Of a DNA stretch of 44,138 nucleotides, positions 25,401 through 41,453 are shown one piece after another. The position numbers and the translations under genes were made by a program. The first letter of the stretch is position 1. The number at the start of each line of letters is the position of its first letter. Under the pieces are notes generated by a model. That model did not search any database. It saw nothing but the letters and a program-made list of their open reading frames with translations, and was not told the origin of the DNA. The stretch is taken from assembly GCA_021732605.1 (NCBI GenBank), contig JAKFUS010000048.1, forward strand, positions 1 through 44,138, given 5' to 3'. The DNA comes from Betaproteobacteria bacterium. Its GTDB lineage: Bacteria; Pseudomonadota; Gammaproteobacteria; Burkholderiales; SG8-41.

Positions 25401-28400
25401 GCTGTTATGGATGATATCGCCCGCAATCGCCTGGTGGATCAGCCAGCCAATAGTCCGCCATGAAACACGCCTGAGCACCGACCAGATCATTTTCCTGCGG
25501 AAAACTTCGCGCAAGACCTGGGCGTTCTTCGAGACCTTCGTCGGACCGGAAGATCACTGGTTGCCTCCGGATAATTATCAGCAGCACCCGGTTGCCGTGG
25601 TTGCCCATCGTACGTCACCCACCAACATGGGTCTGGCCCTGCTTGCCAATTTATCCGCCTACGACTTCGGATACATTGCGACCGGACCGTTGATCGAACG
25701 CACCACACTTGCTCTCGCGACGATGTCTGTCCTTGCGCGCCACCAGGGACACTTCTACAACTGGTATGACACGCAATCACTGCAACCGCTTGCTCCGCAT
25801 TATATTTCTTCGGTGGATAGCGGAAACCTTGCCGGCCATCTGCTCACCTTGCGACCGGGACTGCTCATGCTGCCCGATGACAAGATACTGGGAGCGCGGT
25901 TGTTTGTTGGTTTATCAGATACGCTGAAAGTACTCCAGGATGTTGCGGCAGAGGCGCCGCCAGCCGCACTGGCCCTGCTGGATCAACTGCGGAAAGACCT
26001 GGAGATTGCCTGCGATTCCCGGCCTGCCACGCTCCCGGCCACGCAAATTTTGCTGGCGCGGCTGGCGCCATCTGCCGAGGCATTGGTCGCAAGCCTGGAT
26101 CTACCCTCACCCAACGCCCGGAATAGCGATATGCGGTGGTGGGCACAAGCACTGACCCGGCAATTCCGGAGTGCCCTTGATGAGCTGACATTGCTTGCGC
26201 CTTGGGTTTCACCAACGATTGCGCCGGGCAGATTCCACAACGTCCTGCTTGCTGTTGAATTTCCAACACTGCGCGAGTTGGCCACCCTCAACCTGCCATG
26301 GCTGAAAGCAATCGAAAAACTACAAAGCGCTGAAGTTACGCTTGAGGAACGTGCGTGGTTGGATGATTTGCACGGGCATGTCACCACCGCAAGCGATCAC
26401 GCCCGGAAACGGATTGCGGATATCGAGCATCTGGCGCAACAGGCCGGTGCACTGGCCGTCATGGAGTATGACTTTCTCTACGACAAAGCGCGTCATTTGC
26501 TCGCAATCGGCTACAACGTGGAAGAACGCCGTCGCGACACAAGTTACTACGATCTGCTGGCCTCTGAGGCGAGGTTGTCCAGTTTCGTCGCGATTGCACA
26601 GGGACAATTGCCGCAGGAGAACTGGTTCGCACTGGGTCGCCTGCTCACCACAGCCGCAGGCAAGCCGACGCTGCTGTCGTGGAGCGGATCGATGTTCGAA
26701 TACCTGATGCCTCTGCTGGTCATGCCGACCTACGAAAATACCCTGCTCGACCAGACCTGCAAGGCGGCAGTTGAGCGACAGATCGCCTATGGCAAGCAGC
26801 GCGGCGTCGCCTGGGGCGTCTCGGAATGCGGCTACAACGCAGTCGATGCCGCGCTCAACTATCAATATCGTGCCTTCGGCGTACCCGGCCTGGGACTCAA
26901 GCGCGGGCTTTCCGATGATCTGGTGATTTCACCGTATGCCTCGGCACTGGCGCTGATGGTGGTGCCTGAAGCCGCGTGCCTGAACATGCAGCGCCTCGCC
27001 GCTGAAGGACTGGCGGGACAATTTGGTTTTTATGAAGCCGTCGATTACACCGCGTCTCGCGTACCGCGCGGACAAACCAGCGCGCTTATCCGCTCGTTCA
27101 TGGCGCATCACCAGGGCATGATTTTTCTGTCCCTTGCCTATGTAATGCTGGACCGTCCGATGCAGAAGCGTTTCGAGTCGGAGCCGATGTTTCAGGCAAC
27201 CACCTTGTTGCTGCAGGAACGTGTACCCAAGGTTGGAGGGGTTCAGCTGCATGCCGCAGAATTCTCTGCCATCAGTGCGGCAGCAAACGGTGAGGCAATG
27301 CCGGTGCGCATCCTCAGCAGTCCGGACACGCCAATACCGGAAGTGCAGCTGTTATCGAACGGCAGATACCATGTGATGGTCACCAATGCCGGCGGCGGCT
27401 ACAGCCGGTGGAAAGACCTTGCCGTGACCCGCTGGCGCGAAGACACGACCTGCGACAACTGGGGCACGTTCTGCTACATCCGCGACGTATCAAGCGGGGT
27501 GTTCTGGTCAAACACCCATCAGCCGACGTTGAAGCGCGCAGAAAGCCACGAAACGATCTTTTCGGAAGGCCGCGCGGAATTCCGCCGCCACGACCTTGAT
27601 TACGATACGTATACCGAGATCGTGGTTTCGCCGGAAGACGACATTGAACTGCGCCGGGTGCGCATCAGCAACCGCGCCCGGACCCGGCGTACGATCGAGG
27701 TCACGAGTTACGCTGAAGTCGTGCTCGCCCTGCCCGCCGCCGACGCATTGCATCCGGCTTTCAGCAACCTTTTTGTCCAAACCGAAATTGTCAGCGAGCG
27801 CCAGACCATCCTCTGCACACGCCGGCCGCGCTCACCGGAGGAGCAGTCGCCGTGGATGTTCCACCTGATGGCAGTGCGTGGTGCCAGCGTCGGAGAAATC
27901 TCCTATGAAACAGACCGCATGCGCTTTATCGGCCGCGGCCGCACGGTCGCAGCACCCCAGGCGCTGGGTGATTGCACCGCACTCTCGGGCAGTGCCGGCT
28001 CGGTATTGGACCCCATCGTCGCGATTCGTTATCGGATTACGCTTGAACCGGAGCAAGTGGTGACCATCGACATGGTCTCCGGTGTCAGCGCCACCCGGGA
28101 AACCGCCTTGAGCCTGGCGGGTAAATACCAGGATCGCCAACTGGCGGATCGGGTTTTCGATCTGGCCTGGACTTACGGCCAGGTGGTGTTGCGGCAGATC
28201 AATGGCAGTGAGGCGGATGCGCAACTTTATGCGCATCTGGCAGGCTCCGTCATCTACGCCAATTCCAGTCTGCGCGCGGATGCCGGCGTACTCGGCAAGA
28301 ACCGACGCGGACAGTCCGGCTTATGGGGATATGCCATTTCCGGCGATTTGCCCATTGTGCTGCTGCAGATCGGTGAGCAGGCGAATATCGAACTGGTGCG

Positions 28401-31206
28401 TCAACTGGTCCAGGCCCATGCCTATTGGCGTTTGAAGGGGCTCAGTGTGGATCTGATGATCTGGAACGAAGACCGCGCCGGATACCGGCAATCGTTGCAG
28501 GAGCAAATCATGGGACTGATTGCTGCCGGTGTTGAGGCCCACGTGATAGATCGACCCGGTGGAATCTTCGTGCGGCCGGCTGAGCAGATATCGGACGAAG
28601 ATCGCATCCTCGTTCAATCGGTCGCGCGCGTCATCATCAGCGACCGGAGTGGAACGCTGAGCGAGCAGCTCAACAGGCATGCCTTGATGGATGGTCGCGC
28701 ACACCACCGTAACATGCCTCGTTTCAAACCAAGCCTGCCCCGTCACACTGTACAGGTAACAAAGGAGCTGCCACAGGACAGTCATCTGCTGTTCAACAAC
28801 GGGCTTGGCGGCTTCAGTCCGGACGGGCGCGAGTACGTCATTACGACCGTGCAGGATCAGATAACACCGGCGCCCTGGGTGAATGTACTGGCGAATGCCC
28901 ATTTCGGCACCGTCATCTCGGAGAGCGGCACGGCTTACACCTGGAGTGATAACGCCCATGAGTTCCGCCTGACCCCCTGGGGCGATGATCCTGTGAGCGA
29001 CCCGGGCGGCGAGGCGTTCTACCTGCGTGACGAAGATAACGGCCATTTCTGGTCGCCTACGCCCCTGCCCTGCCGCAGCGCCACGCCCTACGTCAGCCGT
29101 CACGGTTTCGGCTACAGCAGCTTCCAGCACACGGAAGATGGCATCCGTTCGGAACTCACCGTCTATGTTGCACTGGATGCTGCGGTCAAGTTCTCCGTAT
29201 TGAAGGTGCGCAACCAGTCTGGTCGCGCACGCCGGCTCTCCGCAACCGGATACGTCGAATGGGTGCTGGGCGATTTGCGCTCAAAATCAAGCATGCACGT
29301 GATTACTGAAATCGATCCGGCAAGCGGCGCGTTATATGCACGCAACGCATACAACACCGAATTCGCCGACAGGATTGCGTTCTTCGATGTTGACGAGGCA
29401 GGCAAAACATTCAGTGGGGATCGTACCGAGTTCCTCGGGCGAAATGGCACGCTCAAAAATCCTGCCGCCATGGCGCAGTCGCAACTCTCCAACACTGTGG
29501 GTGCCGCTTTTGATCCATGCGCGGCGATCCAGGTTGCTTTTGAGCTGGCCGACGGGGAGGAACGTGAAATCAATTTCAGGCTCGGCGTAGCGGGACGAAG
29601 GGATGCCGATGGCGCCGGCAAACTCGTTCATCGCTTCCGCGGACCAACTGCCGCACGCCATGCACTGGAGTCAGTGCGCGAATACTGGACCCGCACGCTG
29701 GGTGCCGTGCAGGTGGAAACACCGGATCAATCCCTCAACCTGCTCACCAACGGCTGGCTTTTATACCAGACCCTGGCCTGCCGACTGTGGGCGCGCAGCG
29801 GCTACTATCAATCCGGGGGTGCGTTCGGCTTTCGCGATCAACTGCAGGATGTCATGGCGCTCGTTTATGCCGAGCCCGCGCTGGTGCGCGAGCATCTGCT
29901 GCGTTGTGCGGCCCGCCAGTTTACCGAAGGCGATGTCCAGCATTGGTGGCTTCCCGCATCCGGTCGCGGCGTACGCACGCTTTGTTCGGATGACTTCCTG
30001 TGGTTGCCGCTGGTCATCTGCCGCTATGTTTCGAGCACCGGTGACAGCGGGGTTCTGGATGAACCTGTCAGCTTCCTCAGCGGCCGCGCCCTGAATCCCG
30101 GAGAGGACTCGTATTTCGACCTGCCCGGCCGTTCGGAAGAGTCGGCCAGTCTTTATCAGCATGGCGTGCGTGCCGTACTGAGGGGACTTCGCCTCGGAGA
30201 GCATGGCCTGCCACTCATCGGCTCCGGCGACTGGAATGACGGCATGAATTCAGTGGGTAACCACGGCAAAGGCGAAAGCGTATGGCTGGCGTTTTTCCTG
30301 CACACCGTTCTGATGCAGTACAGCAAACTCGCGCTGCTGCGCGGTGATGCGGCTTTTTCCGGTCAATGCCAGAAGGAGGCGGAAAATTTGCGCCACAACA
30401 TCGAGAGCAACGGCTGGGACGGCGAATGGTACCGGCGCGCCTATTTCGACGACGGCACGCCACTGGGTTCAGCGCAAAACGACGAATGCCAGATCGATGC
30501 GATTCCACAAAGCTGGGCCGTGCTTTCCGGAGCTGCGGATCCCGCTCGCGCGCGCATGGCCATGGCGTCAGTGGATCGCCGCCTGGTGCAGCGCAAACAT
30601 GCGCTGATCCAGCTCCTGGATCCTCCGTTCGATCAATCGGAACTGAATCCCGGTTATATCAAGGGCTATGTGCCTGGCGTGCGTGAGAATGGCGGGCAGT
30701 ACACTCACGCGGCGATCTGGACGGTCATGGCATTTGCCGAGCTGGGCGACAGTCGGCGCGCATGGGAATTGTTCGACATGATCAATCCGGTCAATCACGC
30801 AAATTCTGCAGCGGCAGTCGCCACCTACAAAGTTGAACCTTATGTGGTCGCCGCCGATGTTTACGCGGTTGCCCCGCACACCGGTCGCGGCGGCTGGACC
30901 TGGTACACCGGTTCGGCGGGCTGGATGTACCGGCTGATCATCGAATCATTGCTGGGCCTGCAGCTCGATGTTGACAAATTACACTTCGCCCCATGCCTTC
31001 CGGCAGATTGGGAAACATTCAAAGTGCATTATCGTTTCCGTGAAACGCAGTACCACATCAGCGTTCTTCAATTACCGGCGATGGATCCTGAAATCGGGGT
31101 TACGGTGGATGGTGTCAGGCAGCAGGATGGAATCATTGCCTTGGTTGATGATCGCCTGGAGCATGAGGTCGTGGTCAGAATTCACGGGAATGGCGGCCAG
31201 AGCTGA
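22456..31206 (+). CDS. ndvB: Cyclic beta-1,2-glucan synthase (NdvB/Cgs type)
   Basis: A giant inner-membrane enzyme (2916 residues from ATG 22456) that primes, elongates and cyclises beta-1,2-glucan from UDP-glucose for the periplasm. In order: a soluble N-terminal region, two spans (about 408-480), a GT84 glycosyltransferase with DTDTQLP near 633 and RRHRWIRGDW near 775, more spans (about 830-870 and 950-1010), a glycoamylase-like domain (about 1400-1570, GVAWGVSECGYN), two carbohydrate-binding GH94 N-terminal-like modules (about 1630-1790 and 2130-2290) and a GH94 phosphorylase domain with GSGDWNDGMN near 2588 and GRGGWTWYTGSAGW near the end. All modules appear intact. The start is uncertain: the frame is open back to a TTG at 22258 and no site has a good ribosome-binding sequence. 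Its 3' end overlaps the convergent phosphatase gene by 25 bases. Confidence 0.93.
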   Translation: MRRKHQNPAEEPLLRAELFSAEEMEQHGSSLASTHRLSAVRQSDQLLARLAENEDILLHACTLLRETIKESRGITPAAEWLLDNFYLIEEQIYTAKRHLPKRYSGELPTLSQGPSAGLPRVYDIALETISHGDGRVDAESFSRFVAAYQKVTALTLGELWAIPIMLRLALIDNLRRVGARVAASTTDRGQADVLADQMLEVAKTDPKNLILVVADMARSNPPMTGSFVAELARRLQGQSAALALPLTWIEHRLSESGVTIEELVQSETQMQASRQVSISNSIGSLRFLGEMNWRKFVETMSGVEQKLREDPGDHYGNMDFATRDHYRHVVEKLAKASRLPELEVAEMAIQMAQQQSATVTRDADGNVEYDRSSHVGYYLIDKGLPKLKRAAKIRVTGADAVQRPEGRFSLPLYLGAIGVLTLILAAGLLAMSQAGRLESWILTLVTIALLLGVSHLAIGLVNWLATLLATPHMLPRMDFSGGIPHAFRTLVVIPTMLTSAQNVEDLIEALEIRFLANRDPNLLFGLLTDFSDAHQETLPEDDPLLMLAGSRIDDLNRKYRMAEADVGGDAFFLFHRPRRWNPGEQLWMGYERKRGKLAELNALLRGAGSDGFLLIVGATQALSSIKYVITLDTDTQLPRDSARQFAATMAHPLNRAQFDVERQLVTGGYGILQPRMAVSLPGTNRSRYARLFGNEPGIDPYTRAVSDVYQDVFGEGSFIGKGIYDVDAFEQSLKGRFPENRILSHDLLEGCYARAGLLSDVLLYEEYPSTYSADVSRRHRWIRGDWQIASWILRRIPCNNPESAVGRAQNPLSLLSQWKIIDNLRRSLVPAALMFLLLLGWTVLLPVWYWTLVVIGIILLPSFIASIFDLMRKPDDLLPGQHLAAVLRASGTQFQQAALTLSCLPHEAYFSLDAVIRTNWRIWVTRKKMLEWISSGSLERGHQITLIACYQSMWIAPVISIATAAWLVATTPETLMVAGPILLLWMISPAIAWWISQPIVRHETRLSTDQIIFLRKTSRKTWAFFETFVGPEDHWLPPDNYQQHPVAVVAHRTSPTNMGLALLANLSAYDFGYIATGPLIERTTLALATMSVLARHQGHFYNWYDTQSLQPLAPHYISSVDSGNLAGHLLTLRPGLLMLPDDKILGARLFVGLSDTLKVLQDVAAEAPPAALALLDQLRKDLEIACDSRPATLPATQILLARLAPSAEALVASLDLPSPNARNSDMRWWAQALTRQFRSALDELTLLAPWVSPTIAPGRFHNVLLAVEFPTLRELATLNLPWLKAIEKLQSAEVTLEERAWLDDLHGHVTTASDHARKRIADIEHLAQQAGALAVMEYDFLYDKARHLLAIGYNVEERRRDTSYYDLLASEARLSSFVAIAQGQLPQENWFALGRLLTTAAGKPTLLSWSGSMFEYLMPLLVMPTYENTLLDQTCKAAVERQIAYGKQRGVAWGVSECGYNAVDAALNYQYRAFGVPGLGLKRGLSDDLVISPYASALALMVVPEAACLNMQRLAAEGLAGQFGFYEAVDYTASRVPRGQTSALIRSFMAHHQGMIFLSLAYVMLDRPMQKRFESEPMFQATTLLLQERVPKVGGVQLHAAEFSAISAAANGEAMPVRILSSPDTPIPEVQLLSNGRYHVMVTNAGGGYSRWKDLAVTRWREDTTCDNWGTFCYIRDVSSGVFWSNTHQPTLKRAESHETIFSEGRAEFRRHDLDYDTYTEIVVSPEDDIELRRVRISNRARTRRTIEVTSYAEVVLALPAADALHPAFSNLFVQTEIVSERQTILCTRRPRSPEEQSPWMFHLMAVRGASVGEISYETDRMRFIGRGRTVAAPQALGDCTALSGSAGSVLDPIVAIRYRITLEPEQVVTIDMVSGVSATRETALSLAGKYQDRQLADRVFDLAWTYGQVVLRQINGSEADAQLYAHLAGSVIYANSSLRADAGVLGKNRRGQSGLWGYAISGDLPIVLLQIGEQANIELVRQLVQAHAYWRLKGLSVDLMIWNEDRAGYRQSLQEQIMGLIAAGVEAHVIDRPGGIFVRPAEQISDEDRILVQSVARVIISDRSGTLSEQLNRHALMDGRAHHRNMPRFKPSLPRHTVQVTKELPQDSHLLFNNGLGGFSPDGREYVITTVQDQITPAPWVNVLANAHFGTVISESGTAYTWSDNAHEFRLTPWGDDPVSDPGGEAFYLRDEDNGHFWSPTPLPCRSATPYVSRHGFGYSSFQHTEDGIRSELTVYVALDAAVKFSVLKVRNQSGRARRLSATGYVEWVLGDLRSKSSMHVITEIDPASGALYARNAYNTEFADRIAFFDVDEAGKTFSGDRTEFLGRNGTLKNPAAMAQSQLSNTVGAAFDPCAAIQVAFELADGEEREINFRLGVAGRRDADGAGKLVHRFRGPTAARHALESVREYWTRTLGAVQVETPDQSLNLLTNGWLLYQTLACRLWARSGYYQSGGAFGFRDQLQDVMALVYAEPALVREHLLRCAARQFTEGDVQHWWLPASGRGVRTLCSDDFLWLPLVICRYVSSTGDSGVLDEPVSFLSGRALNPGEDSYFDLPGRSEESASLYQHGVRAVLRGLRLGEHGLPLIGSGDWNDGMNSVGNHGKGESVWLAFFLHTVLMQYSKLALLRGDAAFSGQCQKEAENLRHNIESNGWDGEWYRRAYFDDGTPLGSAQNDECQIDAIPQSWAVLSGAADPARARMAMASVDRRLVQRKHALIQLLDPPFDQSELNPGYIKGYVPGVRENGGQYTHAAIWTVMAFAELGDSRRAWELFDMINPVNHANSAAAVATYKVEPYVVAADVYAVAPHTGRGGWTWYTGSAGWMYRLIIESLLGLQLDVDKLHFAPCLPADWETFKVHYRFRETQYHISVLQLPAMDPEIGVTVDGVRQQDGIIALVDDRLEHEVVVRIHGNGGQS

Positions 31207-31784
31207 AGCGATGCGGCGTTCCACAGGGCGATAGCTGGGTGTTCAGTTCGATCATGCTCATAACAGAGAATGCCCAGTGATGCGGTGTTGAGCAAAAAAT
31301 GCTGCGCCTGCCTTACCGAAAGCCCGATCCATCGGGCAGCGAGGACGCGGCCGATGTGACCATGACTGAACAGTGCAACATTCCCATCCATGACCCGAAG
31401 CCGGGCAATAAGGCGATCGGCACGGGCGGAAACCTGGCCGGGTGTTTCGCCGTTCGGTGAGCCATCGCGAAACAGATTCCAGCCCGGTCGTGATGCGTGG
31501 ATATCCGCCGGGGTACGTCCTTCGTAGTCGCCATAATCCCATTCCGCAAGCCCGGGTTCGATTTCGGCAACAGGAGCCAGCCCTGCCAGCGCACAGGTTT
31601 GTTGAGCGCGTTGCAGCGGACTGGTCAGCACATGGGTGAATGGAATGCCGCGGAGACGCAGTCCGAGTTCCCGCGCCGCTGCCCCGCCCTCTGCCGTCAA
31701 TGCAATGTCGGTGCGACCGGTATATTGACCGGACAGTGACCACTCGGTTTCGCCGTGACGGATGAGGTAAAGCCGCAGAGACAT
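31182..31784 (-). CDS. Histidine phosphatase family protein
   Basis: A 200-residue phosphoglycerate-mutase-like phosphatase. The phospho-histidine motif is LYLIRHGETEWSLSGQYTGR (residues 5-24, RHGE), the second catalytic part is SPLQRAQQTC and EWDYGDYEGR, and the late His lies in VALFSHGHIGRVLAARW. Similar enzymes include alpha-ribazole phosphatase (CobC) and sugar-phosphate phosphatases; no cobalamin genes are near. Its ATG comes five bases after the phosphoketolase stop, so it is last in that operon. A sugar-phosphate substrate linked to phosphoketolase is a reasonable but unproven idea. Confidence 0.88.
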   Translation of the reverse strand: MSLRLYLIRHGETEWSLSGQYTGRTDIALTAEGGAAARELGLRLRGIPFTHVLTSPLQRAQQTCALAGLAPVAEIEPGLAEWDYGDYEGRTPADIHASRPGWNLFRDGSPNGETPGQVSARADRLIARLRVMDGNVALFSHGHIGRVLAARWIGLSVRQAQHFLLNTASLGILCYEHDRTEHPAIALWNAASLQLWPPFP

Positions 31785-31789
31785 GCGCT

Positions 31790-34231
31790 TTATGCTGTTA
31801 ACTTTGTTCCGCCCCAATGCCAATTGCGGATTTCCGGCATGTCCTGGCCATGGGTATTGATGTATTGCTTGTGCTCAATCAGCTTGTCCCTGAGCTTATG
31901 CTTCAGGCCGATACCGCTCTCGCCGGTCTGCGGCAGACGGTCGATGGCATCCATCACCAGGTGATAACGGTCCAGATCGTTCAGCACCGTCATGTCGAAG
32001 GGCGTGGTGATGGTGCCCTCCTCCTTGTAGCCGCGGACATGGATGTGGTCGTGGTTGGTGCGGCGGTAGGTCAGCCGGTGGATCAGCCAGGGGTAGCCAT
32101 GGAAGGCGAAGATGACCGGCTTGCTCACGGTGAACAGCGCGTCGAAATCCGGATCGCTCAAACCGTGGGGGTGCTCGGTTTGCGGCTGCAGTTTCATCAG
32201 ATCGACAACGTTGACGACGCGGATTTTCAGATCGGGCAGATGTTCGCGCAGGATGGATACGGCGGCGAGCGTTTCCAGGGTGGGCACATCGCCGCAGCAG
32301 GCCATCACCACGTCGGGGCCGGCGTCATCACCGCTTGCGCCTGGCTCGTTGCCGGCCCACGACCAGATGCCGATGCCCGCGGCGCAGTGCTTGACGGCAG
32401 CGTCCATCGTCAGCCACTGCGGGGCCGGGTGTTTGCCCGCGATCACGACATTCACGTAATGGCGGCTGCGCAGGCAATGGTCCATCACTGACAGCAGGCA
32501 ATTCGCATCCGGCGGCAGGTAGACCCTTACCACCTCCGCTTTCTTGTTCACCACGACGTCGATAAAGCCGGGATCCTGATGTGTAAAACCGTTGTGATCC
32601 TGGCGCCAGACATGTGAGGCCAGCAGATAGTTCAGCGAGGCGATCTTCCTGCGCCACGGCAGGTGCGATGTGACCTGCAGCCACTTGGCGTGCTGGTTGA
32701 ACATCGAATCGACAATGTGGATGAACGCCTCATAGCAGTTGAACAGACCATGCCGCCCGGTGAGCAGGTAGCCCTCCAGCCAGCCTTCGCATTGGTGTTC
32801 ACTGAGCATGGAATCCAGCACGCGCCCGGCAGGTGCGAGAAATTCATCGTCCGGCACAGTCACGGCATTCCACTGGCGCTTGGTCGCTTCAAACAGCGCC
32901 CCCAGGCCGTTGGAAATCGTCTCGTCAGGGCCAAACACCCGGAAATTCCGCTGCGCACTGTTCAATTTCGCCACATCGCGAAGAAACGGCCCGAGCACAC
33001 GCGTGTCACCGATGCCGATGCCGCCCGGCGTTGGCACCTGCTGCGCGTAATCGCGGAAATCCGGCATATTCAGGTCGCGCAGCAGCATGCCGCCATTGGC
33101 GTGGGGATTCGCGCCCATGCGCCTCTCGCCCGCAGGTGCAAGTTCGGCCAGCTCCGGTTTAAGGCGGCCATGCGCATCAAAGAGTTCTGCCGGCCGATAA
33201 CTCTGCAGCCATTCCTCCAGAAGCCCGAGGTGTCCGGGATGGGTGGCCGGATGCAGCGGAACCTGGTGCGAACGGAAAGTGTCTTCCACCTTCCGGTCGT
33301 CAACGATTTTCGGCCCGGTCCAGCCTTTGGGAGAAATCAGGATAATCATCGGCCAGCGCGGGCGCTCAAGGTTGCCGTGGGTGCGGGCGTCCTGCTGGAT
33401 TTTCCGGATCTGCTCAACGGCAATATCGAGTGTCGCGGCCATGGCCTCATGCATCAACCCGGGCTCGTGACCTTCGACAAAATACGGTGTCCAGCCATAA
33501 CCGCGGAACAACTGCTCCAGCTCCTCGCGGCTGATACGAGCGAGCAGTGTCGGGTTGGCGATCTTGTAGCCATTCAGATGCAGGATCGGCAGTACCGCGC
33601 CGTCGCTGACCGGATTGAGAAACTTGTTGGCATGCCAGGCCGTGGCCAGCGGACCGGTTTCTGCTTCACCATCGCCAACGACGCAGGCCACGACGAGATC
33701 CGGGTTGTCGAATACCGCCCCGAATGCATGGCTGAGCGAATAACCCAGCTCGCCGCCCTCATGAATTGATCCGGGACATTCCGGCGATGCGTGGCTGGGA
33801 ATCCCGCCGGGAAATGAAAACTGAACAAAGAGTTTACGCAGCCCGGCTTCATCCCGGCTGATATCGGGATAAATTTCGCTGTAGCTGCCTTCCAGATAGG
33901 TGTTGCTGACGACTGCAGGACCGCCATGCCCGGGCCCGGAGACATAAATCATGTCGAGGTCGTATTTTTTGATGACCCGGTTCAAATGCACGTAGATAAA
34001 GTTCTGCCCCGGTGTCGTGCCCCAGTGCCCCAGCAGCATGCGCTTCACATCGGTGAGCGCCAGAGGCCGCTTCAGCAGCGGATTATCAAACAGATAAATC
34101 TGCCCGACCGAGAGGTAATTCGTCGCCCGCCAGTAGGCGTCTATTCTGCTGAGTGATTCCGCAGATAAGGTGACAATTGAGGTGGCAGTTGAGGTGGCAG
34201 TTGAGGTATTTAAGTTATTGATTTTATTCAT
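31790..34231 (-). CDS. xfp: Xylulose-5-phosphate/fructose-6-phosphate phosphoketolase
   Basis: An 813-residue thiamine-diphosphate enzyme that splits xylulose 5-phosphate or fructose 6-phosphate with phosphate into acetyl phosphate and a C3 or C4 sugar phosphate. Family signatures: [18 protein letters not shown] (68-85), [11 protein letters not shown] (96-106), EGSYSEIYP (114-122), the [20 protein letters not shown] stretch (141-160) and the cofactor motif [19 protein letters not shown] (187-205). The length is typical. Residues 9-21 ([13 protein letters not shown]) come from a short DNA tandem repeat and precede the conserved part. It lies 35 bases after the GGDEF-EAL gene and five before the phosphatase gene. 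Confidence 0.97.
34178..34208. repeat. 12-bp tandem repeat inside the phosphoketolase N-terminus
   Basis: About 2.6 copies of TTGAGGTGGCAG (plus-strand reading) encode the repeated Thr-Ala-Thr-Ser segment at residues 9-18. The unit is a multiple of three, so copy-number change would alter only the length of a non-conserved leader. Confidence 0.7.
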
Positions 34232-34266
34232 TTATTTTGCCTGTCTCAGCGGCCATCGTTACAAAC

Positions 34267-35877
34267 TCAATGCGCTGTCAGCACCCCGGTTGCGGCCAGG
34301 GTGACGAACTCCTCGGCGGCAACGGGCCGGCTAAAGAGAAAACCCTGTCCCTCGGGGCAGCAACGGGAGTCCAGGAAGGCCAGTTGCTGCAGGGTTTCTA
34401 TACCCTCGGCCACGACCCGGAGCTTGAGGCTTGCGCCCATCGCGATGATCGCGCTGATGATCGCTTCGCCTTCTTCGCAGTCGCTGTCCCGCACGAACGA
34501 CTGGTCGATCTTCAGTGTGTTGATTGGAAACCGCCGCAGATAACTCAGACTCGAATAGCCGGTGCCAAAGTCATCAATGGCAATCTGTACGCCGAGGCTC
34601 CGCAGTGCGTGCAAGGCCGCTGTCGCCGGTTCCGCATTCCTGATCAGTACGCTTTCGGTCAACTCCAGTTCAAGGTGTCGCGGATTCAGGCCGGTATCGT
34701 TGAGAATGGCATGGACATCGCCGAGAAAATCCTGATCATGAAACTCGACCGCTGAAACATTGACCGATATTTGTCCGATGTCCAGACCGTCTTTCAGCCA
34801 GGCCGCCATCTGCCGACAGGATTCCCGAAGCACCCACTTGCCGATCGGCAGTATCAGCCCGCTGTCTTCCGCTATTCTCACGAACTCTGTCGGAAAAGCC
34901 AGCGGGTGATCGGCGCGCTGCCAGCGCAGCAATGCTTCCGCTCCGGTAATGGCGCCAGTCTGGATATTCACCTTGGGCTGGTAATGCAATACAAATTCCT
35001 GTTTATCGAGTGCGTGGCGCAGAGCGTCTTCGACCGATTGGCGCTTGACGGCACGGGCGTTCATGTCCGGGGTAAACCGCTGGTAGTTATTGCGCCCGTT
35101 TTTCTTGGCGTGATACATCGCCGTATCAGCGTTCTTGACCACGGCTTCGGCATCTTTGCCGTCGTCGGGATAGAGGCAGATGCCGACGCTCAGCGTGGCG
35201 AGCAGCCGATGACCATCGATGAGGTGCGGTTCAGCCATCGATTCGATCAGCTTCTCAGCGGTCAGGGCGGCATCCTGCGCCTGCTCAACTTCGGTCAACA
35301 GCACCACGAATTCGTCGCCGCCCTGGCGACAGACGGTGTCAGAGCCGCGGACGCAGGCCTGCAGGCGCTTGGCGACCGACTGCAGCAACTGGTCGCCGAC
35401 CGCATGCCCGAGCGTATCGTTGATGTGCTTGAAGTGATCGAGGTCCATGAACATCAGGGCGACTTTTTTGCTGTGACGCTGTGCCAGCGCGATTGATTGC
35501 GTCAGACGGTCGGTCAGCAGGGAACGGTTCGGCAATCCGGTGAGGAAATCGTGCTCTGCCATATAGGACATGCGCGCTGCGGCCTGCTCGGCGGCCTCGG
35601 TCATGGTCTGGGAGTTGACCGTGGCGACGACGAGCCGCTCATTGGCTTCCCGCAATTGCGCCTCGATGGCCGCGTTGCGCCCCGCTCTGGTCAGCGCGGC
35701 CGCCTCCCGGGCACGCAATGCGGTCTCGCGAATCGCGGCCGCTTCTTCGCGCTGTCGTGCTGCCTCCTCGCGATTGCGCACGAGCAGTTCACCGGCAAGG
35801 ATCGCGGCCTCGCGCTCGACGAAGCTCTTCCCGGGTGGTTCGTTCCCGCTGCCCGTCAGGGTTGATTTCACCCCCAT
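34267..35877 (-). CDS. c-di-GMP enzyme with GGDEF and EAL domains
   Basis: A 536-residue soluble protein. Residues about 20-100 are an Ala/Glu/Arg-rich coiled coil (REEAARQREEAAAIRETALR). The GGDEF domain (about 110-270) has an intact RQGGDEF and an RGSD inhibitory site five residues before it. The EAL domain (about 285-530) keeps AEALLRW, SVNVSAVEF, ELTES, DDFGTGYSS, KIDQSFV, EGIE and a GQGFLFSRP end, so both synthesis and breakdown of c-di-GMP look possible. There is no membrane span or PAS domain; input probably comes through the coiled coil. It begins nine bases after the KaiC-like gene, which makes that ATPase a likely partner. Confidence 0.93.
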   Translation of the reverse strand: MGVKSTLTGSGNEPPGKSFVEREAAILAGELLVRNREEAARQREEAAAIRETALRAREAAALTRAGRNAAIEAQLREANERLVVATVNSQTMTEAAEQAAARMSYMAEHDFLTGLPNRSLLTDRLTQSIALAQRHSKKVALMFMDLDHFKHINDTLGHAVGDQLLQSVAKRLQACVRGSDTVCRQGGDEFVVLLTEVEQAQDAALTAEKLIESMAEPHLIDGHRLLATLSVGICLYPDDGKDAEAVVKNADTAMYHAKKNGRNNYQRFTPDMNARAVKRQSVEDALRHALDKQEFVLHYQPKVNIQTGAITGAEALLRWQRADHPLAFPTEFVRIAEDSGLILPIGKWVLRESCRQMAAWLKDGLDIGQISVNVSAVEFHDQDFLGDVHAILNDTGLNPRHLELELTESVLIRNAEPATAALHALRSLGVQIAIDDFGTGYSSLSYLRRFPINTLKIDQSFVRDSDCEEGEAIISAIIAMGASLKLRVVAEGIETLQQLAFLDSRCCPEGQGFLFSRPVAAEEFVTLAATGVLTAH

Positions 35878-35886
35878 GAATAGCTC

Positions 35887-37455
35887 CTACTTCTTCGCTT
35901 TGGGTTCCGGCGGGTCTTCGTTCTCCTGCGCAACGCGTGGACCGCTTCGGTTCGGGATTCCCGTGACCAGCTTTTCGTAGTCTGTGCGGCGCGGGTGAAT
36001 GACCACCACACCCTTGTCGTTAATGACATATTCGCGGATATCTTTGCTGTGATTGCCGCCGCGCATCTTGATGATCATGATTACCTTGCGCAGCTGGCCA
36101 TCGATCTCGACATAACGCAGGCGGATGATGTCATCGGTGAGAAACGAGATTGCGTAATGACTGAACTGCAGTGAAGTGAAGCTGTCTTCCACTTCGACCG
36201 TGCTGAGAATGGTGATCCCGACGGCCGTCAATGCGCCGATCATCCGATAGAGTGATTCGCGAAATTCGGCACGGAAACCGGGCGCCAGCGCCATCTCGAA
36301 TCCGACCAGCGAATCGATCACCAGCCGCTTTGCGCCGATCCGTTTGATGGCATCCAGGATCTCCTGCATGGTTTCATCCACCGAAAGGTCGAGCGGACGC
36401 AGGTAAAGGGCCACCAGTTTTCCTTTTTTTATCGCGTCGTTTAATTTCAGGCCGAAAGTGCCTGCCCGCTGCGTGTAGCCATCCGGGCGCTCTTCGAAGA
36501 TCGCCATGATTCCCGGTTCCCCGCGACGGATGCCTTCAGCGATAAATTGGGTGGCCAAAGCCGATTTTCCCGTCCCCGATGGCCCGGCCACCAGCAGGCT
36601 GTCGCCTTCGCGTATGCCGCCGCCCAGCATCTTGTCCAGTTCGGGTATGCCGATGGAAAGATGCTTGCGTCGCACCAGTTTGGATTTGCTGCCGACTAAT
36701 CCCAGAGTGCGCGAAAAGACCTGCACGCCAATGTCGCTGATGCGAACGGTGTGCAATCCCGGTATCGTCAACAGGCCGCGCATTTTGATAATCTGCAGTT
36801 TACGCACCACGGAATTCCGCTCGGTCACCTGCGACAGCCAGAAAATACCGTCCACCATGGTAAACAGCGGGTTGTCGCGGATCTCTTCCTCAACATATTC
36901 ACCCACCAAAAAGGTGGTGGCTTCCCAGCTGGTCATAAACTGGGTGAGGCGATGGATAAACGAATTCACCTCCAGTTCGCCCTCAACGCTGACCGCTTTG
37001 CGCGCCAGGGTGCGAAAGGAATCAACCACCACCACGCCGGCATTGGCCAGAGTGACTTGTTTGATGATTTCCTCCAGCACCGCCTCCAGATTGTTCTCCA
37101 GCACCAAATCGGACAGATTGATAAAGCGCACCGACTTGCCCAGCTTGGACTCGTCAAAGAATTCAAACTGTTGCTGATAGCGCAGCATCTTGATGACGGG
37201 TTCGCCAAGGATGGTGAAATAAAGCGCCGGTTTCTTCGGTGTCGCATTGGCGAAAGCGAATTGATGCGCCATCGTTGTTTTGCCGCAACCGGGTGAGCCG
37301 CCGATGATGTTGAAGGAGAATTCCGGGATGCCGCCGTGGAGGATTTCGTCGAGACCGGGCACGCCAGTCAGCAACTTGTGAATCCTGACTTTGTCGGGCT
37401 TTTTCACTCCTTTATTCAGCGCAGCGTGCGAAGCGGGCTTACTTTTGGTTTTCAT
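35887..37455 (-). CDS. Double-domain KaiC-like ATPase
   Basis: A 522-residue RecA-like protein with two KaiC domains. Domain 1 (about 22-250) has Walker A GSPGCGKT at 53-60 and VVVVDSF as Walker B. Domain 2 (about 260-490) has GPSGTGKS near 288 and RLVIDSLVGFE. Domain 2 keeps the Glu-Glu pair (AIFEERPD) used by KaiC for catalysis; domain 1 has GEP in that place. The C-terminal part (RLRYVEIDGQLRKVIMIIKM, then SKDIREYVINDKG) is close to cyanobacterial KaiC, but no KaiA or KaiB gene is near. ATG 37455 overlaps the upstream gene by 17 bases; an in-frame GTG lies two codons earlier. It is probably a phospho-switch or signalling ATPase, not a clock. Confidence 0.93.
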   Translation of the reverse strand: MKTKSKPASHAALNKGVKKPDKVRIHKLLTGVPGLDEILHGGIPEFSFNIIGGSPGCGKTTMAHQFAFANATPKKPALYFTILGEPVIKMLRYQQQFEFFDESKLGKSVRFINLSDLVLENNLEAVLEEIIKQVTLANAGVVVVDSFRTLARKAVSVEGELEVNSFIHRLTQFMTSWEATTFLVGEYVEEEIRDNPLFTMVDGIFWLSQVTERNSVVRKLQIIKMRGLLTIPGLHTVRISDIGVQVFSRTLGLVGSKSKLVRRKHLSIGIPELDKMLGGGIREGDSLLVAGPSGTGKSALATQFIAEGIRRGEPGIMAIFEERPDGYTQRAGTFGLKLNDAIKKGKLVALYLRPLDLSVDETMQEILDAIKRIGAKRLVIDSLVGFEMALAPGFRAEFRESLYRMIGALTAVGITILSTVEVEDSFTSLQFSHYAISFLTDDIIRLRYVEIDGQLRKVIMIIKMRGGNHSKDIREYVINDKGVVVIHPRRTDYEKLVTGIPNRSGPRVAQENEDPPEPKAKK

Positions 37456-37888
37456 GGGCACTTTGATTTGCTAATTCCGAATCATTGATCTTGATTTTCG
37501 GCCACACCTCACGCAGCAGTCCCAGCGTTATTTTCTCGCCAACCAGAGTCACCATTAACCCAAGTAAATGCGCGAACAGAACGCTGTAGCCTTCGATCAG
37601 TTGTTCCGGTGTGACCTGCGTGCCAAATCCACCCGTTGCCTCCAAAGTGCCGTCCGCATTCACCCGCACCATGCTCAGCCACTGAACATCGGCTTTGGCC
37701 AGCGCGAGTGCGCGTGTCAGCAAGGCCCGAAAACCGCCATTCCCCATCAGCAAAGCAAGCTGCGGTTGCAGCTTCTCGATAACCCGGAAAGACTCCTCCG
37801 TGATGATCTCGGCAGATTTATTGATTTTCGTTTCATGCGTCATCAGACGAAGGGAAAAACTCATGATTTGTGGAGTAACTCGGTCCAT
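37439..37888 (-). CDS. Uncharacterised protein, first gene of the KaiC operon
   Basis: A 149-residue protein if started at ATG 37888; ATG 37864 or 37843 are also possible and none has a strong ribosome-binding site. From THETKINKS on it is a soluble, mostly helical protein (EESFRVIEKLQPQLALLMGN, GGFRALLTRALALAKADVQW), then a short strand (LSMVRVNADGTLEA) and a hydrophobic helix (GYSVLFAHLLGLMVTLVGEK). I recall similar unnamed proteins beside KaiC-like genes in proteobacteria; this is memory only. It is not KaiB, which has a thioredoxin-like sequence. Its stop overlaps the KaiC-like start, so they are coupled and may bind each other. A pentanucleotide repeat lies just before the start. Confidence 0.75.
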   Translation of the reverse strand: MDRVTPQIMSFSLRLMTHETKINKSAEIITEESFRVIEKLQPQLALLMGNGGFRALLTRALALAKADVQWLSMVRVNADGTLEATGGFGTQVTPEQLIEGYSVLFAHLLGLMVTLVGEKITLGLLREVWPKIKINDSELANQSAHENQK

Positions 37889-37903
37889 TTTTAGTCGCTG
37901 ATG

Positions 37904-37928
37904 ATTGCATTGCATTGCATTGCATTGC
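37904..37928. repeat. Five tandem copies of ATTGC
   Basis: A perfect pentanucleotide repeat (GCAAT on the minus strand), 16 bases upstream of the first possible start of the KaiC operon. On the minus strand the reading frame of the first gene is open through the repeat and the repeat itself holds ATG triplets, so copy number could change either promoter spacing or which upstream ATG is in frame. Confidence 0.9.
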
Positions 37929-38118
37929 ACGGCGCTGGCGCAGTCTCTGAATTTCGGCCAGCAGGAGAATCCAAAGTAACTGCGGGCCAATCGACTATCT
38001 GTGCGGTATCGTACCCCCCCACCGATTTATCTTCGCGGCGTGTGTTGAAACTGCCGCAACAATGCCAAGCGGCATTCCGCACGCCTGAGCCAGGACGGCC
38101 AAGGCGTGAATAACGGCG

Positions 38119-38910
38119 CTATGCCGCCAACTCCATCGGCAGCAGCCGGTCATATTTCTCCTGCACCACGGCATAACATTCGCAGACGCGTTGCTCCAGC
38201 CCCTTGCGGTTGAGCACGGTGATACGGCCGCGCGAATAGCGGATGAGTCCCGCCTTCTGCAGCTTGGTCGCGCCCTCTGTCACGCCTTCGCGCCGTACCC
38301 CGAGCATGTTGGCGATCAGCTCCTGCGTCATCAGCAGTTCGTTACCCGGCAGACGGTCCAGGCTCAGCAGCAGGCAACGGCACAATTGCTGGTCCAGTGA
38401 ATGATGCCGGTTGCAAACGGCGGTTTGCGACATTTGCGTGATCAGCGCCTGGGTGTAGCGCAGCAGCAGGTGCGTCACCGGTCCGCCCCGCTCGAATTCT
38501 TCCTTCATGATCTGCGCCTTCAACCGATATCCCTTGCCGGCGCTTTGCACCACGGCACGACTGGGCGTCGAATTGCCGCCCATGAACAGCGAGATGCCGA
38601 CGATGCCTTCATTGCCGACGACGGCTATTTCGGCCGAGTCGCCATTTTTCATCACGTAGAGCAGAGAAACGATGGCCGAGGTCGGGAAATACACATGGCT
38701 ACCGATGCTGCCTGAGGCATAAAGCACGCGGCCCAGCGGCATCTCGACCAATTCAAGCTTTGGCAGCCAGAGCTTCAGTGCCGGGTCCGGCAACGCCGCG
38801 AGCAACAGATTCAATTTTATTTCGTGCGCACTGGCCACTACGGGTGTGCGGTGTGATGCGGGTAACGTAGCGTTGACAGGGGGCTTTCTTGGACGCGGTG
38901 AAACAGTCAT
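38119..38910 (-). CDS. Crp/Fnr-family transcriptional regulator (copy 2)
   Basis: A 263-residue regulator of the same subfamily as the one at 20771-21517. A variable N-terminus of about 30 residues is followed by the cyclic-nucleotide-binding-like domain (about 50-165: AIVSLLYVMKNGDSAEIAVV, GNEGIVGISLFMGG) and a Crp-type helix-turn-helix (MTQELIANMLGVRREGVTEG). The shared QTAVCNRHHSLDQQLCRCLL region is nearly identical in both copies. It lacks an FNR-type cysteine cluster. It lies 230 bases upstream of the KaiC operon on the same strand and could be its regulator or its first transcribed gene. Confidence 0.9.
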   Translation of the reverse strand: MTVSPRPRKPPVNATLPASHRTPVVASAHEIKLNLLLAALPDPALKLWLPKLELVEMPLGRVLYASGSIGSHVYFPTSAIVSLLYVMKNGDSAEIAVVGNEGIVGISLFMGGNSTPSRAVVQSAGKGYRLKAQIMKEEFERGGPVTHLLLRYTQALITQMSQTAVCNRHHSLDQQLCRCLLLSLDRLPGNELLMTQELIANMLGVRREGVTEGATKLQKAGLIRYSRGRITVLNRKGLEQRVCECYAVVQEKYDRLLPMELAA

Positions 38911-38937
38911 GGCGGGCCGTATGGATGGGCTTGGAGT

Positions 38938-39174
38938 TTAGATTTCCACGAAGCGGGGATTATGGAAAGCAAACAAGGACTTGTATGCTCGGTAACGCAC
39001 AAACGCAGCAATGGCCCGGCGGCATACCGGTTTGCCCTGTCTGATTTGCAAGCCAGCCCGGTGCAGCGCCTGGATCGCGGCACTGCCTTGCTGGCGGGAG
39101 CCACGCCAGCCCAACACGCCGCGCTGCGTGGATGACTCAGCGTGTATGAGGCCATAAGGGCCACGAGCAGCCAC
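38938..39174 (-). CDS. Doubtful small open reading frame
   Basis: 78 codons from a GTG at 39174 to 38938, Arg/Gly/Ala-rich (RGVLGWRGSRQQGSAAIQAL, GKPVCRRAIAAFVRYRAYKS). There is no convincing ribosome-binding site and I do not recognise a family. It may be a worn gene or a chance frame. Around it, 38911-39326 holds no other gene; the part at 39270-39320 is AT-rich with two GTTTAAA copies (39275, 39286). Confidence 0.2.
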   Translation of the reverse strand: MAARGPYGLIHAESSTQRGVLGWRGSRQQGSAAIQALHRAGLQIRQGKPVCRRAIAAFVRYRAYKSLFAFHNPRFVEI

Positions 39175-39326
39175 AAGCGCGAAACCAAAACCGTTGCAGC
39201 GGTTGATGGTCAGATTGACTGCAAAATTTTCGCGGCAGACTGCATTTGCCGTGAATGGGCAGAGGGGCAGGTCTGTTTAAATATTGTTTAAAATCAAATA
39301 CTTATTTTCATATTATGCGCTGGGCA

Positions 39327-39882
39327 CCTGCTCCGCCCTACGCACGCCCGCTCCGTACGGTTGGTGGCAAGCAACTGAGTGTTGCGTGTCGCGGGCAACG
39401 TTTCTTCGGGGTCGCATCCCCGCTGCGCGGGGCCCCTGCTCCGCCCTGCTCACGCCCGCTCCGCACGGTTGGTGGCAAGCAACAGAGTGTTGGGTGTCGC
39501 GGGCAACGTTTCTTCGGGGTCGCATCCCCGCTGCGCGGGGCCCCTGCTCCGCCCTGCTCACGCCCGCTCCGTACGGTTGGTGGCAAGCAACAGAGTGTTG
39601 GGTGTCGCGGGCAACGTTTCTTCGGGGTCGCATCCCCGCTGCGCGGGGCCCCTGCTCCGCCCTGCTCACGCCCGCTCCGTACGGTTGGTGGCAAGCAACA
39701 GAGTGTTGGGTGTCGCGGGCAACGTTTCTTCGGGGCCGCATCCCCGCTGCGCGGGGCCCCTGCTCCGCCCTGCTCACGCCCGCTCCGTACGGTTGGTGGC
39801 AAGCAACAGAGTGTTGGGTGTCGCGGGCAACGTTTCTTCGGAGTCGCATCCCCGCTGCGCGGGGCCCCTGCTCCGCGCTACG
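39327..39882. repeat. Tandem array of a 108-bp unit, five full copies and a partial
   Basis: Units begin with CCTGCTCCGCCC at 39327, 39435, 39543, 39651 and 39759, and a sixth partial one at 39867, so the period is exactly 108 bases. The copies are nearly identical; unit 1 differs most (TACGC for GCTCA, TGTTGCG for TGTTGGG), the others by single bases. Each carries the hairpin CCCCGC-TGC-GCGGGG. Because 108 is a multiple of three and the unit lacks stops, long reading frames appear in several frames on both strands; I consider these chance. The array ends five bases before the guaA stop. Confidence 0.93.
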
Positions 39883-39887
39883 AAACG

Positions 39888-41453
39888 TTACTCCCACTCA
39901 ATAGTAGCCGGTGGCTTACCCGAGATATCGTACACAACGCGGTTGATGCCCCGCACTTCATTAATGATGCGGTTCGAGACTTTGGCGAGCAGGCTGTACG
40001 GCAGTTCTGCCCAATGCGCGGTCATGAAGTCGGTGGTTTGGACGGCGCGCAGTGCGACCACGTATTCATAGGTGCGGCCATCGCCCATCACGCCCACTGA
40101 CTTGACCGGAAGGAATACCGCAAAAGCCTGTGCGGTTTTGTCATACCAGTCAGCCGCGCGCAGTTCTTCAATGAAAATGGCGTCGGCTGCGCGCAGCAGG
40201 TCGGCGTATTGCGCCTTGACTTCGCCGAGGATGCGCACGCCCAGCCCCGGTCCCGGAAACGGATGGCGGAACACCATGTCGCGCGGCAGGCCGAGCGCCA
40301 GGCCGAGGTCGCGCACTTCATCCTTGAACAGTTCGCGCAGCGGCTCCAGCAGTTTCAGGTGCAGCGTGTCCGGAAGGCCACCGACGTTGTGGTGTGACTT
40401 GATGGTGTGCGCTTTTTTGGTCTTGGCCCCTGCCGATTCGATGACGTCCGGATAGATCGTGCCCTGCGCCAGCCATTTGGCCTTGGGCAGTTTTGCCGAT
40501 TCGGCCTGGAAGACTTCGATGAATTCGCGGCCGATGATTTTGCGCTTTTGTTCAGGGTCGGTGACGCCAGCGAGGTGGCCCATGAACTGGTCACGGGCAT
40601 TGACGTGGATGACTTTGACACCCAGATTCTGCGCAAAGGTGGCCATCACTTGCCCGGCTTCGTTCAGGCGCAGCAGGCCGTTGTCGACGAACACGCAGGT
40701 CAGCTGTTTGCCGATCGCTTTATGGATCAATGCCGCAGCCACTGAGGAATCGACGCCACCCGACAGGCCAAGGATGACTTCCTCGTCGCCGACATCACGG
40801 CGGATTCGCGCAATGGCTTCATCGACATAGCTGGGCATGCTCCAGTCTCCCGCCAGTCCGCAGATGCCCAGCACGAAGCGTTCGATCAATGCCTTGCCCT
40901 GCGGCGTGTGCGTAACCTCGGGATGGAACTGCACAGCGTAGAACTTGCGCGCCTCGTCGGCCATGCCGGCAATCGGACAGGTTGCGTTGCTGGCCATCAA
41001 TTTGAAACCCGGCGGCAGGTCGATAACTTTGTCGCCGTGGCTCATCCACACATCGAGCATGCCGTGGCCGTCGGGCGTAGTCCGGTCCTGGATGTCTTTC
41101 AACAATGTGGTGTGGCCGTGCGCGCGCACTTCGGCATAACCAAATTCACGCACCTTGCCCATCTCAACCTTGCCGCCGAGCTGCTCCGCCATGGTTTGCA
41201 TGCCATAGCAGATGCCCAGCACCGGCACGCCCAGTTCGTACACCAGCGCCGGCGCCCGCGGTGTGCTGTCTTCCCATACGGAAGCCGGGCCACCGGACAG
41301 GATCACTCCGTCGGGTTTGAACGTCCGGATGAAGTCTTCCGTGACGTCGTGCGGATGGAGTTCGCAGTACACGTGGAGTTCGCGCACACGGCGCGCAATC
41401 AACTGGGTGTATTGCGAACCGAAATCAAGGATCAGGATTTTTTCGTGGTGCAC
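39888..41453 (-). CDS. guaA: GMP synthase (glutamine-hydrolysing)
   Basis: A 521-residue two-domain enzyme turning XMP, ATP and glutamine into GMP. The class I amidotransferase domain (1-195) has [18 protein letters not shown], Cys82 in GICYGMQ and His in QFHPEV. The ATP-pyrophosphatase domain starts near 205 with the PP-loop [10 protein letters not shown], and the dimerisation domain ends in PPATIEWE, the standard terminus. The start is GTG 41453 with a weak ribosome-binding site, 72 bases after guaB, so both are in one operon. The 108-bp repeat array begins directly past its stop. Confidence 0.97.

Follow-up and report, generated by a model that had tools for sequence, protein, structure and literature searches.

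What does a KaiC-type ATPase do when its gene lies beside that of a c-di-GMP enzyme, and which of the surrounding genes belong with it? The question arises from a 44,138-nucleotide stretch of betaproteobacterial DNA (hereafter the window), in which the original prediction had placed a compact five-gene operon. We verified five minus-strand ORFs between positions 31182 and 37888, encoding a small protein, KaiC, a GGDEF-EAL protein, a phosphoketolase and a phosphatase, and reproduced the junction gaps that had been given (-17, 9, 35 and 5 bases). The gene identities were borne out as well: PF06745 matched twice, PF00990 and PF00563 matched the third gene, the phosphoketolase Pfams the fourth and PF00300 the fifth, and the small protein matched no Pfam or NCBIfam family. 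As had been stated, the five-gene block contains no histidine kinase; it has no receiver domain either. One sigma-70-like match (34249-34221) spans the gap before the phosphoketolase gene (xfp) and its first codons; in that scan, promoter-like sites numbered 3 vs 3.5 in shuffled sequences and terminator-like sites 8 vs 8.1. Upstream of the block lies a Crp/Fnr-like regulator gene (38119..38910, minus strand; PF13545, PF00027). The sequence block upstream of the small-protein gene, ATACCGNACAGA, is similar in a congener; it was rejected as a regulon element because the window holds one copy where 0.34 are expected, so that no regulon can be argued.

The KaiC-like ATPase (35887..37455, minus strand) starts with ATG, a GTG at 37461 being an alternative, and has two domains with two P-loops (PF06745 twice). 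Its clade signature is LGE(P)..KMLRYQQQ in CI and FEER plus ISFLTDDII in CII, with LGE in place of the catalytic FEE in CI. Alignment to other KaiCs, a set to which S. elongatus KaiC does not belong, indicates one phospho-site: ISFLTD keeps the serine and has phenylalanine in the second place. The two adjacent canonical phospho-sites are S431/T432. A PF07689 search of the window's own genome (96.5% complete) gave no KaiB match at E ≤ 0.001, as the original prediction of a KaiB-free block would have it, and the same search matches in S. elongatus. With KaiB missing, we do not count the block as a KaiABC system. In our tree the KaiC of the block forms a branch apart from the KaiC of kaiC-kaiB-kinase operons. 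A second double-KaiC gene lies on another contig of the same genome.

The first gene encodes a small helical protein of 149 aa, here called SMALL (37439..37888, minus strand), whose constant association with KaiC had been missed in the original prediction. It starts with MDRVTPQIM, a choice backed by homologues. We compared 80 loci from several phyla, being the KaiC relatives kept by one scan, and found a SMALL homologue immediately upstream of KaiC in 78 of them (59 by tblastn and 19 further by HMM, positions checked). SMALL was also detected in 9 genomes of a sample of 323 and in 4 of a sample of 397, two samples that overlap and both contain the window's own genome. Of the 11 SMALL-bearing genomes other than the window's own, nine have a KaiC of the block's kind adjoining it, one encodes a SMALL domain and GGDEF in a single polypeptide and one gives a weak match. 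On gene order, the conserved core is SMALL plus KaiC. The AlphaFold2 model of SMALL is mostly helical (pLDDT 87.5, pTM 0.84), and the protein has no Pfam, NCBIfam or PDB match. A Pfam scan of 65 SMALL homologues returned 8 families with one member each (best E 0.014), and the best E was 0.41 for the SMALL profile against PDB sequences. Foldseek gave a best E of 1.6 for the model, with KaiB and KaiA absent among the best 50 of 92 matches.

Directly behind KaiC, the window encodes a GGDEF-EAL protein of 536 aa (34267..35877, minus strand; PF00990, PF00563), the putative output enzyme. Its translation keeps the signature motifs RQGGDEF and EALLRW intact, and it should both make and break c-di-GMP. 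The gene occupies the exact position of the kinase in other loci. Compared across loci, the third gene is the presumptive output, and its type can change: most loci encode a PAS histidine kinase there, a sister clade has GGDEF fused to a kinase, and the window has GGDEF-EAL. Of the 43 third genes in clade A, 32 carry HATPase_c; those of the sister clade carry HisKA (15/15) and GGDEF (10/15). Some third genes were masked by longer shadow ORFs in the automatic ORF choice, and on recheck L016, L050 and L052 have a motif-bearing gene (see below) downstream. Nine clade-A loci with more than 1 kb of downstream sequence have no kinase directly behind KaiC (L015, L017, L024, L032, L035, L039, L047, L056 and L060); of these, L015 and L017 lie close to the window KaiC in the tree. 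For L019, L054 and L064 there is less than 1 kb of downstream sequence, and for L057, L063 and L070 the sequence stops within KaiC. Nitrosospira (L081) has a close relative of the GGDEF-EAL gene in the vicinity of KaiC, G333 has a remnant of one, and the KaiC operon of G216 has a REC-GGDEF-EAL output. Of 21 genomes of the genus, the same two carry the block's KaiC, xfp and a GGDEF-EAL gene, the last being 90% identical in the congener.

Ahead of GGDEF we found, by profile match, a motif of about 40 residues (residues 73-112, NERLVVATVNSQTMTEAAE; 35542..35661, minus strand), which precedes the catalytic part in all three kinds of output: PAS kinase, GGDEF-kinase and GGDEF-EAL. A profile made solely from six sister-clade GGDEF-kinases matched the window motif at E 2.1e-5 when 16,700 six-frame segments were searched. 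A small test gave E 2.3e-7 for the window and 0.04 for the best of 28 GGDEF-EAL paralogue loci. A motif pattern, composed after viewing these proteins, fits 25/59 third genes and 0/639 other ORFs. Across 61 relatives, matches to the motif profile fell in exactly the 4 genomes that have the block's KaiC, always in the gene directly downstream, 3 of the 4 matched genes being rows of the profile itself. With a kinase-only profile, the window was not among the matches of a wide search (22 kinase rows entered twice), the GGDEF-EAL protein of the congener reached a non-significant E of 0.079 and, in the small test, the paralogue locus L120 (E 0.012) was level with the window (0.018). The 40-residue profile is insensitive: seven genomes of the class sample have SMALL and KaiC, and it matches two of them. 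In terms of the SMALL-KaiC module that we propose, the window has SMALL directly upstream and a motif-bearing third gene, whereas the third gene of G216 is without the motif. The predicted tie of a KaiC-type ATPase to c-di-GMP turnover without KaiB held up, as it recurs in other lineages; from these comparisons we regard the KaiC-c-di-GMP link as well supported by sequence, because the motif is common to the outputs and SMALL is fused to GGDEF in one genome.

Our preferred reading, which we consider probable, is that a two-protein switch, KaiC without KaiB together with SMALL, drives the motif-bearing signalling enzyme encoded next to it, here one of c-di-GMP turnover. The KaiC-type ATPase and its dedicated SMALL would form the switch; KaiC would be a ring whose state is set by ATP hydrolysis or by phosphorylation at the single kept site. 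This state would pass to the next-encoded enzyme, which bears a matching coiled-coil-like plug before its catalytic part, and SMALL or KaiC may bind this motif. The output would be a PAS histidine kinase in most relatives and GGDEF-EAL in the block; as it is GGDEF-EAL here, the switch would set c-di-GMP turnover. The kinase-less clade-A loci, the motif-free output of G216, the low sensitivity of the motif profile and the weak results of the kinase-only profile count against this reading.

The whole five-gene block lies inside a genomic island of about 19.2 kb between guaA and an arsC-like gene (20657..39888, the guaA-side end being exact to some 60 bases only). This location had been overlooked in the original prediction. 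The site is empty in congeners G007 and G004, where the guaA 3' region continues into arsC-like and deaminase genes. Congener G005 carries a different insert at the same guaA 3' site, with Hsp20-, DegP-, FtsH- and DnaJ/CbpM-like genes (read by eye), a set reminiscent of transmissible stress-tolerance loci; the island of the window holds signalling and carbon genes instead. Convergent with the block lies an ORF of 2982 aa (22258..31206, plus strand), which putatively encodes an NdvB-like cyclic beta-glucan synthase. An approximately 80% identical homologue is present in the congener's island, with a guaA fragment (62%) beyond it. No integrase was found among the 30 window ORFs scanned, and no tRNA. 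The island may aid stress or surface life, with the phosphoketolase as a co-transferred metabolic gene. This setting also accommodates another reading, in which SMALL-KaiC is a unit and GGDEF-EAL, xfp and the phosphatase landed behind its promoter as loose stress-island cargo and work separately. The functionally mixed island (e.g., the NdvB-like gene and Crp), the heat-shock-like genes in the G005 insert and the fact that xfp and the phosphatase are not conserved neighbours all fit such cargo; nevertheless, the GGDEF-EAL gene sits at the kinase position, bears the motif of KaiC neighbours and has the relatives near KaiC in L081 and G333, and we judge this reading unlikely.

The last two genes encode a phosphoketolase (31790..34231, minus strand; PF09364/03894/09363; NCBIfam phosphoketolase 1436 bits, cut-off 962) and a branch 1 protein of the histidine phosphatase superfamily (31182..31784, minus strand; PF00300, 160 bits). 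The latter starts with MSLRLYLIRHGE and scores under the cut-off of each NCBIfam model matched. That the five genes form one conserved system was not confirmed: outside the window's genome, the complete set was found in a single congener, xfp and the phosphatase lie inside the operon at just one of 80 loci (congener L013), and the block may be a single event within one genus. The original circuit has KaiC and c-di-GMP tuning or sensing the flow of carbon by way of phosphoketolase and acetyl phosphate; the phosphatase could be added as a sugar-phosphate partner. What remains of it is a proximity above chance. The inferred tie of phosphoketolase to SMALL-KaiC is weakly supported: at 4/80 loci (3 without the congener) KaiC and xfp are no more than 10 kb apart, vs 0.07-0.27 expected, and xfp occurs in 6/7 SMALL-KaiC genomes of the class sample vs 101/323 overall; at L048 and L091 the gene beside xfp resembles acetate kinase (read by eye). 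Against the circuit, xfp is an occasional neighbour only, not found within the fetched flanks, some of them short, at 76/80 loci; the association also fits a common stress island, nothing links acetyl phosphate to the block's KaiC, and the block is without a receiver domain. We hold this circuit to be quite improbable. By title and abstract start, the literature on KaiC with phosphoketolase describes no such block.

Kinase or GGDEF/EAL genes next to KaiC are known from published work: in the accessible text of PMC3164672 (2011), a third ("black") KaiC group adjoins histidine kinase or GGDEF/EAL genes. The block resembles this group in its poorly kept phospho-sites and adjoining signalling genes, having the signalling neighbour and at most one phospho-site, as is the rule there. 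It differs in that neither a constant small partner nor a motif common to kinase and GGDEF-EAL is mentioned in the same text. Hypothetical proteins are drawn in Fig. S6 of that paper. KaiC homology, and the hourglass that the accessible text proposes for KaiC-kinase pairs without KaiB, would suggest a genuine timer, hourglass or daily, whose hand is c-di-GMP, but we give it very little credence because a phospho-site is lost (S, then F), CI has LGE for FEE, and that text rates KaiCs unable to phosphorylate two residues as unlikely timers (PMC3164672). The block is like kaiC-kaiB-kinase operons in the order of KaiC and output, there a kinase, and unlike them in having SMALL in the operon, a genome without KaiB match and KaiC on a separate branch; in G041 (L126), such an operon adjoins a SMALL-KaiC module. 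Like the cyanobacterial KaiABC-SasA clock, the block has a two-domain KaiC with an output enzyme of its own; unlike that clock, it has no KaiB, one phospho-site and another output. No description of the SMALL partner or of the output-common motif was found in the literature, searched mostly in the main text of papers outside subscription, and no paper was found on KaiB-less KaiC in Verrucomicrobia/Acidobacteria.

Taken at the level of sequence, there is a SMALL-KaiC pairing with varied outputs, a common motif, a SMALL-GGDEF fusion and an island. The role of KaiC outside cyanobacteria is a long-standing question, to which a near-constant partner with no known relatives and an output motif common to kinases and c-di-GMP enzymes give a testable handle. 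According to the accessible part of PMC13001216 (2026), the S. elongatus clock is shifted by the level of c-di-GMP via factors yet to be named; here, the gene of a c-di-GMP enzyme directly follows that of a KaiC. More tentatively, SMALL could be the first of a novel type of KaiC partner, one that reads or sets the ring as KaiB or KaiA does. The state of the ring would be handed on, via a portable plug of coiled-coil type, to outputs that can replace one another (histidine kinases, GGDEF-kinases, GGDEF-EAL), and in many bacterial phyla KaiC would then govern c-di-GMP and two-component signalling as a general ATP-driven controller. As KaiC and SMALL are joined to a c-di-GMP enzyme in the host, a Burkholderiales-like bacterium, a clock-like ATP switch may control its bacterial lifestyle.

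The five minus-strand open reading frames at 31182-37888, their order and their intergenic gaps all agree with the original prediction, and Pfam and NCBIfam confirmed the families of the double KaiC, the GGDEF-EAL protein, the phosphoketolase (xfp) and the histidine phosphatase (branch-1). The first protein of the block, a 149-residue protein predicted to be helical (37439-37888; hereafter the small protein), matched no Pfam or NCBIfam family. KaiB was not found in the source genome, which carries a second double KaiC. The expectation that the five families form a conserved neighbourhood was not supported: among the best 80 KaiC loci, the complete set was present at one, that of a congener (L013, in genome G014). 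At E <= 1e-60, the window KaiC was matched in 4 of 61 relatives' genomes: its own, the congener (88%), another genus of the same family (75%) and a member of the same order (49%). Within the genus, xfp and a close GGDEF-EAL relative (90%) were each found in 2 of 21 genomes, in both cases the KaiC carriers. GGDEF-EAL matches at E <= 1e-120 occurred in 17 of the 21, those other than the congener's showing no more than 48% identity to the window's protein.

Since arsC-like and deaminase genes continue straight after guaA in congeners G007 and G004, we consider the window region at about 20657-39888 to be an insertion. Six congener guaA regions were compared. G014 contains the block, with a 62% guaA fragment beyond an NdvB-like gene; the contig of G020 stops at guaA, and in G001 guaA was the sole one found among the genes searched. 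In G005 (L175, 3806-15749), the same guaA site holds a different insert, with genes read by eye as Hsp20-, DegP-, FtsH- and DnaJ/CbpM-like. The G+C content of KaiC (0.553) and the small-protein gene (0.511) is lower than that of xfp (0.592) and GGDEF-EAL (0.608), which may reflect mixed origins of the block. A 108-bp tandem repeat (39316-39876, 5.2 copies), similar to sequence in the congener, separates guaA from the remaining island. Immediately before the start of the small-protein gene lies a pentanucleotide repeat (37904-37929, 5.2 copies) that the congener lacks; its slippage could alter expression. NdvB-like matches were seen in KaiC loci of other lineages too, at L075, L092, L087 (just a short piece) and L013. 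In another betaproteobacterium (L046, 584-5925), a small protein-KaiC operon lies less than 2 kb from guaA, on its 5' side.

Four of the best 80 loci (L013, L029, L048 and L091) have xfp no more than 10 kb from KaiC, against a chance expectation of 0.07-0.27 over 876,530 flanking bases. The probability of at least 3 such neighbours is 5e-5 to 2.6e-3, with genome sizes assumed and loci that are not fully independent. XFP_N scored above cut-off in 101 of 323 genomes of a class sample, partly through short matches, and in 6 of the 7 carrying the small protein and KaiC (P 0.004; 5 of 6 with the source genome excluded, P 0.012).

The conserved unit is the small protein with KaiC. A scan of genome contigs gave 119 KaiC relatives, and the analysis was carried out on the best 80. 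Of these, 78 have a small-protein homologue directly upstream of KaiC, with positions checked (59 by tblastn and 19 more by HMM); the exceptions are L077, on a contig that begins inside KaiC, and L073, where the match to KaiC sets in at residue 118-120. The relatives included in the tree represent Pseudomonadota, Verrucomicrobiota, Acidobacteriota, Planctomycetota, Fibrobacterota, Myxococcota and Gemmatimonadota. Two further samples, which partly overlap in genomes, agree with the pairing. In the class sample, the small-protein profile matched 9 of 323 genomes, 7 of them (the source genome included) with an adjacent KaiC. G198 encodes a 364-residue fusion (L166, 5546-6640) in which the small domain precedes GGDEF; two Crp-like genes stand in front, and the fetched 12 kb contain no KaiC of the window's family. 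The match in G187 (E 7.7e-4) looks unrelated. In the phylum sample, the profile matched 4 of 397 genomes, the source genome and 3 others, and in all 3 a relative of the window KaiC (40-49%) adjoins the small protein. KaiC relatives were also found in four plasmid records, and gene content was examined in three: one from Paracoccus encodes the small protein and KaiC together with an HWE kinase and a response regulator, and in two from Caballeronia KaiC is accompanied by a hypothetical protein and a gene with a diguanylate cyclase annotation. On plasmids, tblastn with the window's small protein detected the Paracoccus homologue alone; the small-protein HMM recognised both Caballeronia proteins.

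AlphaFold2 (65-row alignment) predicted for the small protein a fold of helices and one short hairpin (pLDDT 87.5, pTM 0.84), with no credible match in Pfam, PDB sequences or PDB folds. In KaiC, CI reads LGE(P) then KMLRYQQQ, where two other aligned KaiCs have FEE; clade-A KaiCs, the group with mostly PAS histidine kinase outputs, retain FEER in CII. The phospho-site region, ISFLTDDII, keeps one of two sites.

A candidate third gene, the output gene behind KaiC, was obtained at 59 loci. In the scanned clade-A set (43 genes, without L013, L032 and L035), PAS_4 was found in 33, HATPase_c in 32, HisKA in 28 and a response regulator domain in 11, several of the genes being cut at contig ends; the domain tally contained no GGDEF families. 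The 15 sister-clade genes (13 loci and 2 plasmids) carry HisKA in 15, HATPase_c in 14 and GGDEF in 10. Seven of the eight columns that are 90% conserved in the 43-row alignment fall in a single stretch before the kinase core, AMNEALLLGSLRQHELTEAAE...L, and residues 79-97 of the window's GGDEF-EAL protein read NERLVVATVNSQTMTEAAE. A pattern for this motif, devised after viewing these sequences, fits 25 of 59 third genes and none of 639 further ORFs (>= 200 residues) in the loci, few of them kinases and some of them shadow ORFs. A 26-row profile, which includes the window, L013 and L020, matched 4 of 61 relatives' genomes, each time in the gene directly behind KaiC; G041 alone is unrepresented in the profile (G026 and G014 being the genomes of L020 and L013). 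In the class sample it matched 4 of 323 genomes, beside KaiC in the source genome, G246 and G333, and weakly over 18 columns in G320. Five of the 7 small protein-KaiC genomes were overlooked, so the profile, although specific, lacks sensitivity.

A profile of six sister-clade GGDEF-kinases alone picked out the window from 16,700 segments (E 2.1e-5); in a small test it gave the window E 2.3e-7, and the best of 28 loci with other GGDEF-EAL proteins E 0.04. A kinase-only profile scored L013 at E 0.079 and left the window unlisted when searched widely; in the small test, one paralogue locus, L120 (0.012), was level with the window (0.018). The motif is also present in third genes of G333, G246, G649 and G600, all outside the six-row profile, and the linker of the G198 fusion resembles it weakly (E 0.0022 among five proteins).

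Some modules are unusual. In G041 (L126, 3130-13161), the small protein-KaiC module adjoins a kaiC gene that is followed by two small genes read by eye as KaiB and a kinase. The third gene of the module carries the motif as well as a GGDEF-like stretch, and Crp-like genes flank the module on both sides. At L081 (13424-15574), near the KaiC operon, a second small-protein gene lies immediately 5' of a GGDEF-EAL gene whose two pieces, in different frames, match the window's at 51-61%. The module in G333 (L165, 4754-6042) is apparently decaying: its KaiC piece has CII only, and its GGDEF protein is truncated and shares 58% identity with that of the window across residues 16-196.

PMC3164672 already describes three contexts in which KaiC genes adjoin kinases or GGDEF/EAL genes, and reports one KaiC-kinase co-transcript; in the literature searched, we found the small KaiC partner and the motif shared among outputs described nowhere. 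A quick tree (76 rows, SH-aLRT support only, long-branch warning at L076 and the outgroup) places the window and L013 KaiCs inside a mixed-phylum clade where kinase outputs predominate. Among the closest relatives of the window KaiC, third genes of the PAS type occur at L016 and L026; none could be found at L015 and L017. The KaiC of G216, whose output is REC-GGDEF-EAL, branches away from those of the window and L013, with kinase carriers between. Two observations speak against a simple rule: the G216 third gene lacks the motif and has a degenerate GGDEF signature, and nine clade-A loci with more than 1 kb downstream have no kinase directly behind KaiC. As third genes elsewhere mostly carry kinase domains, the window has a c-di-GMP enzyme at the position otherwise taken by the kinase.
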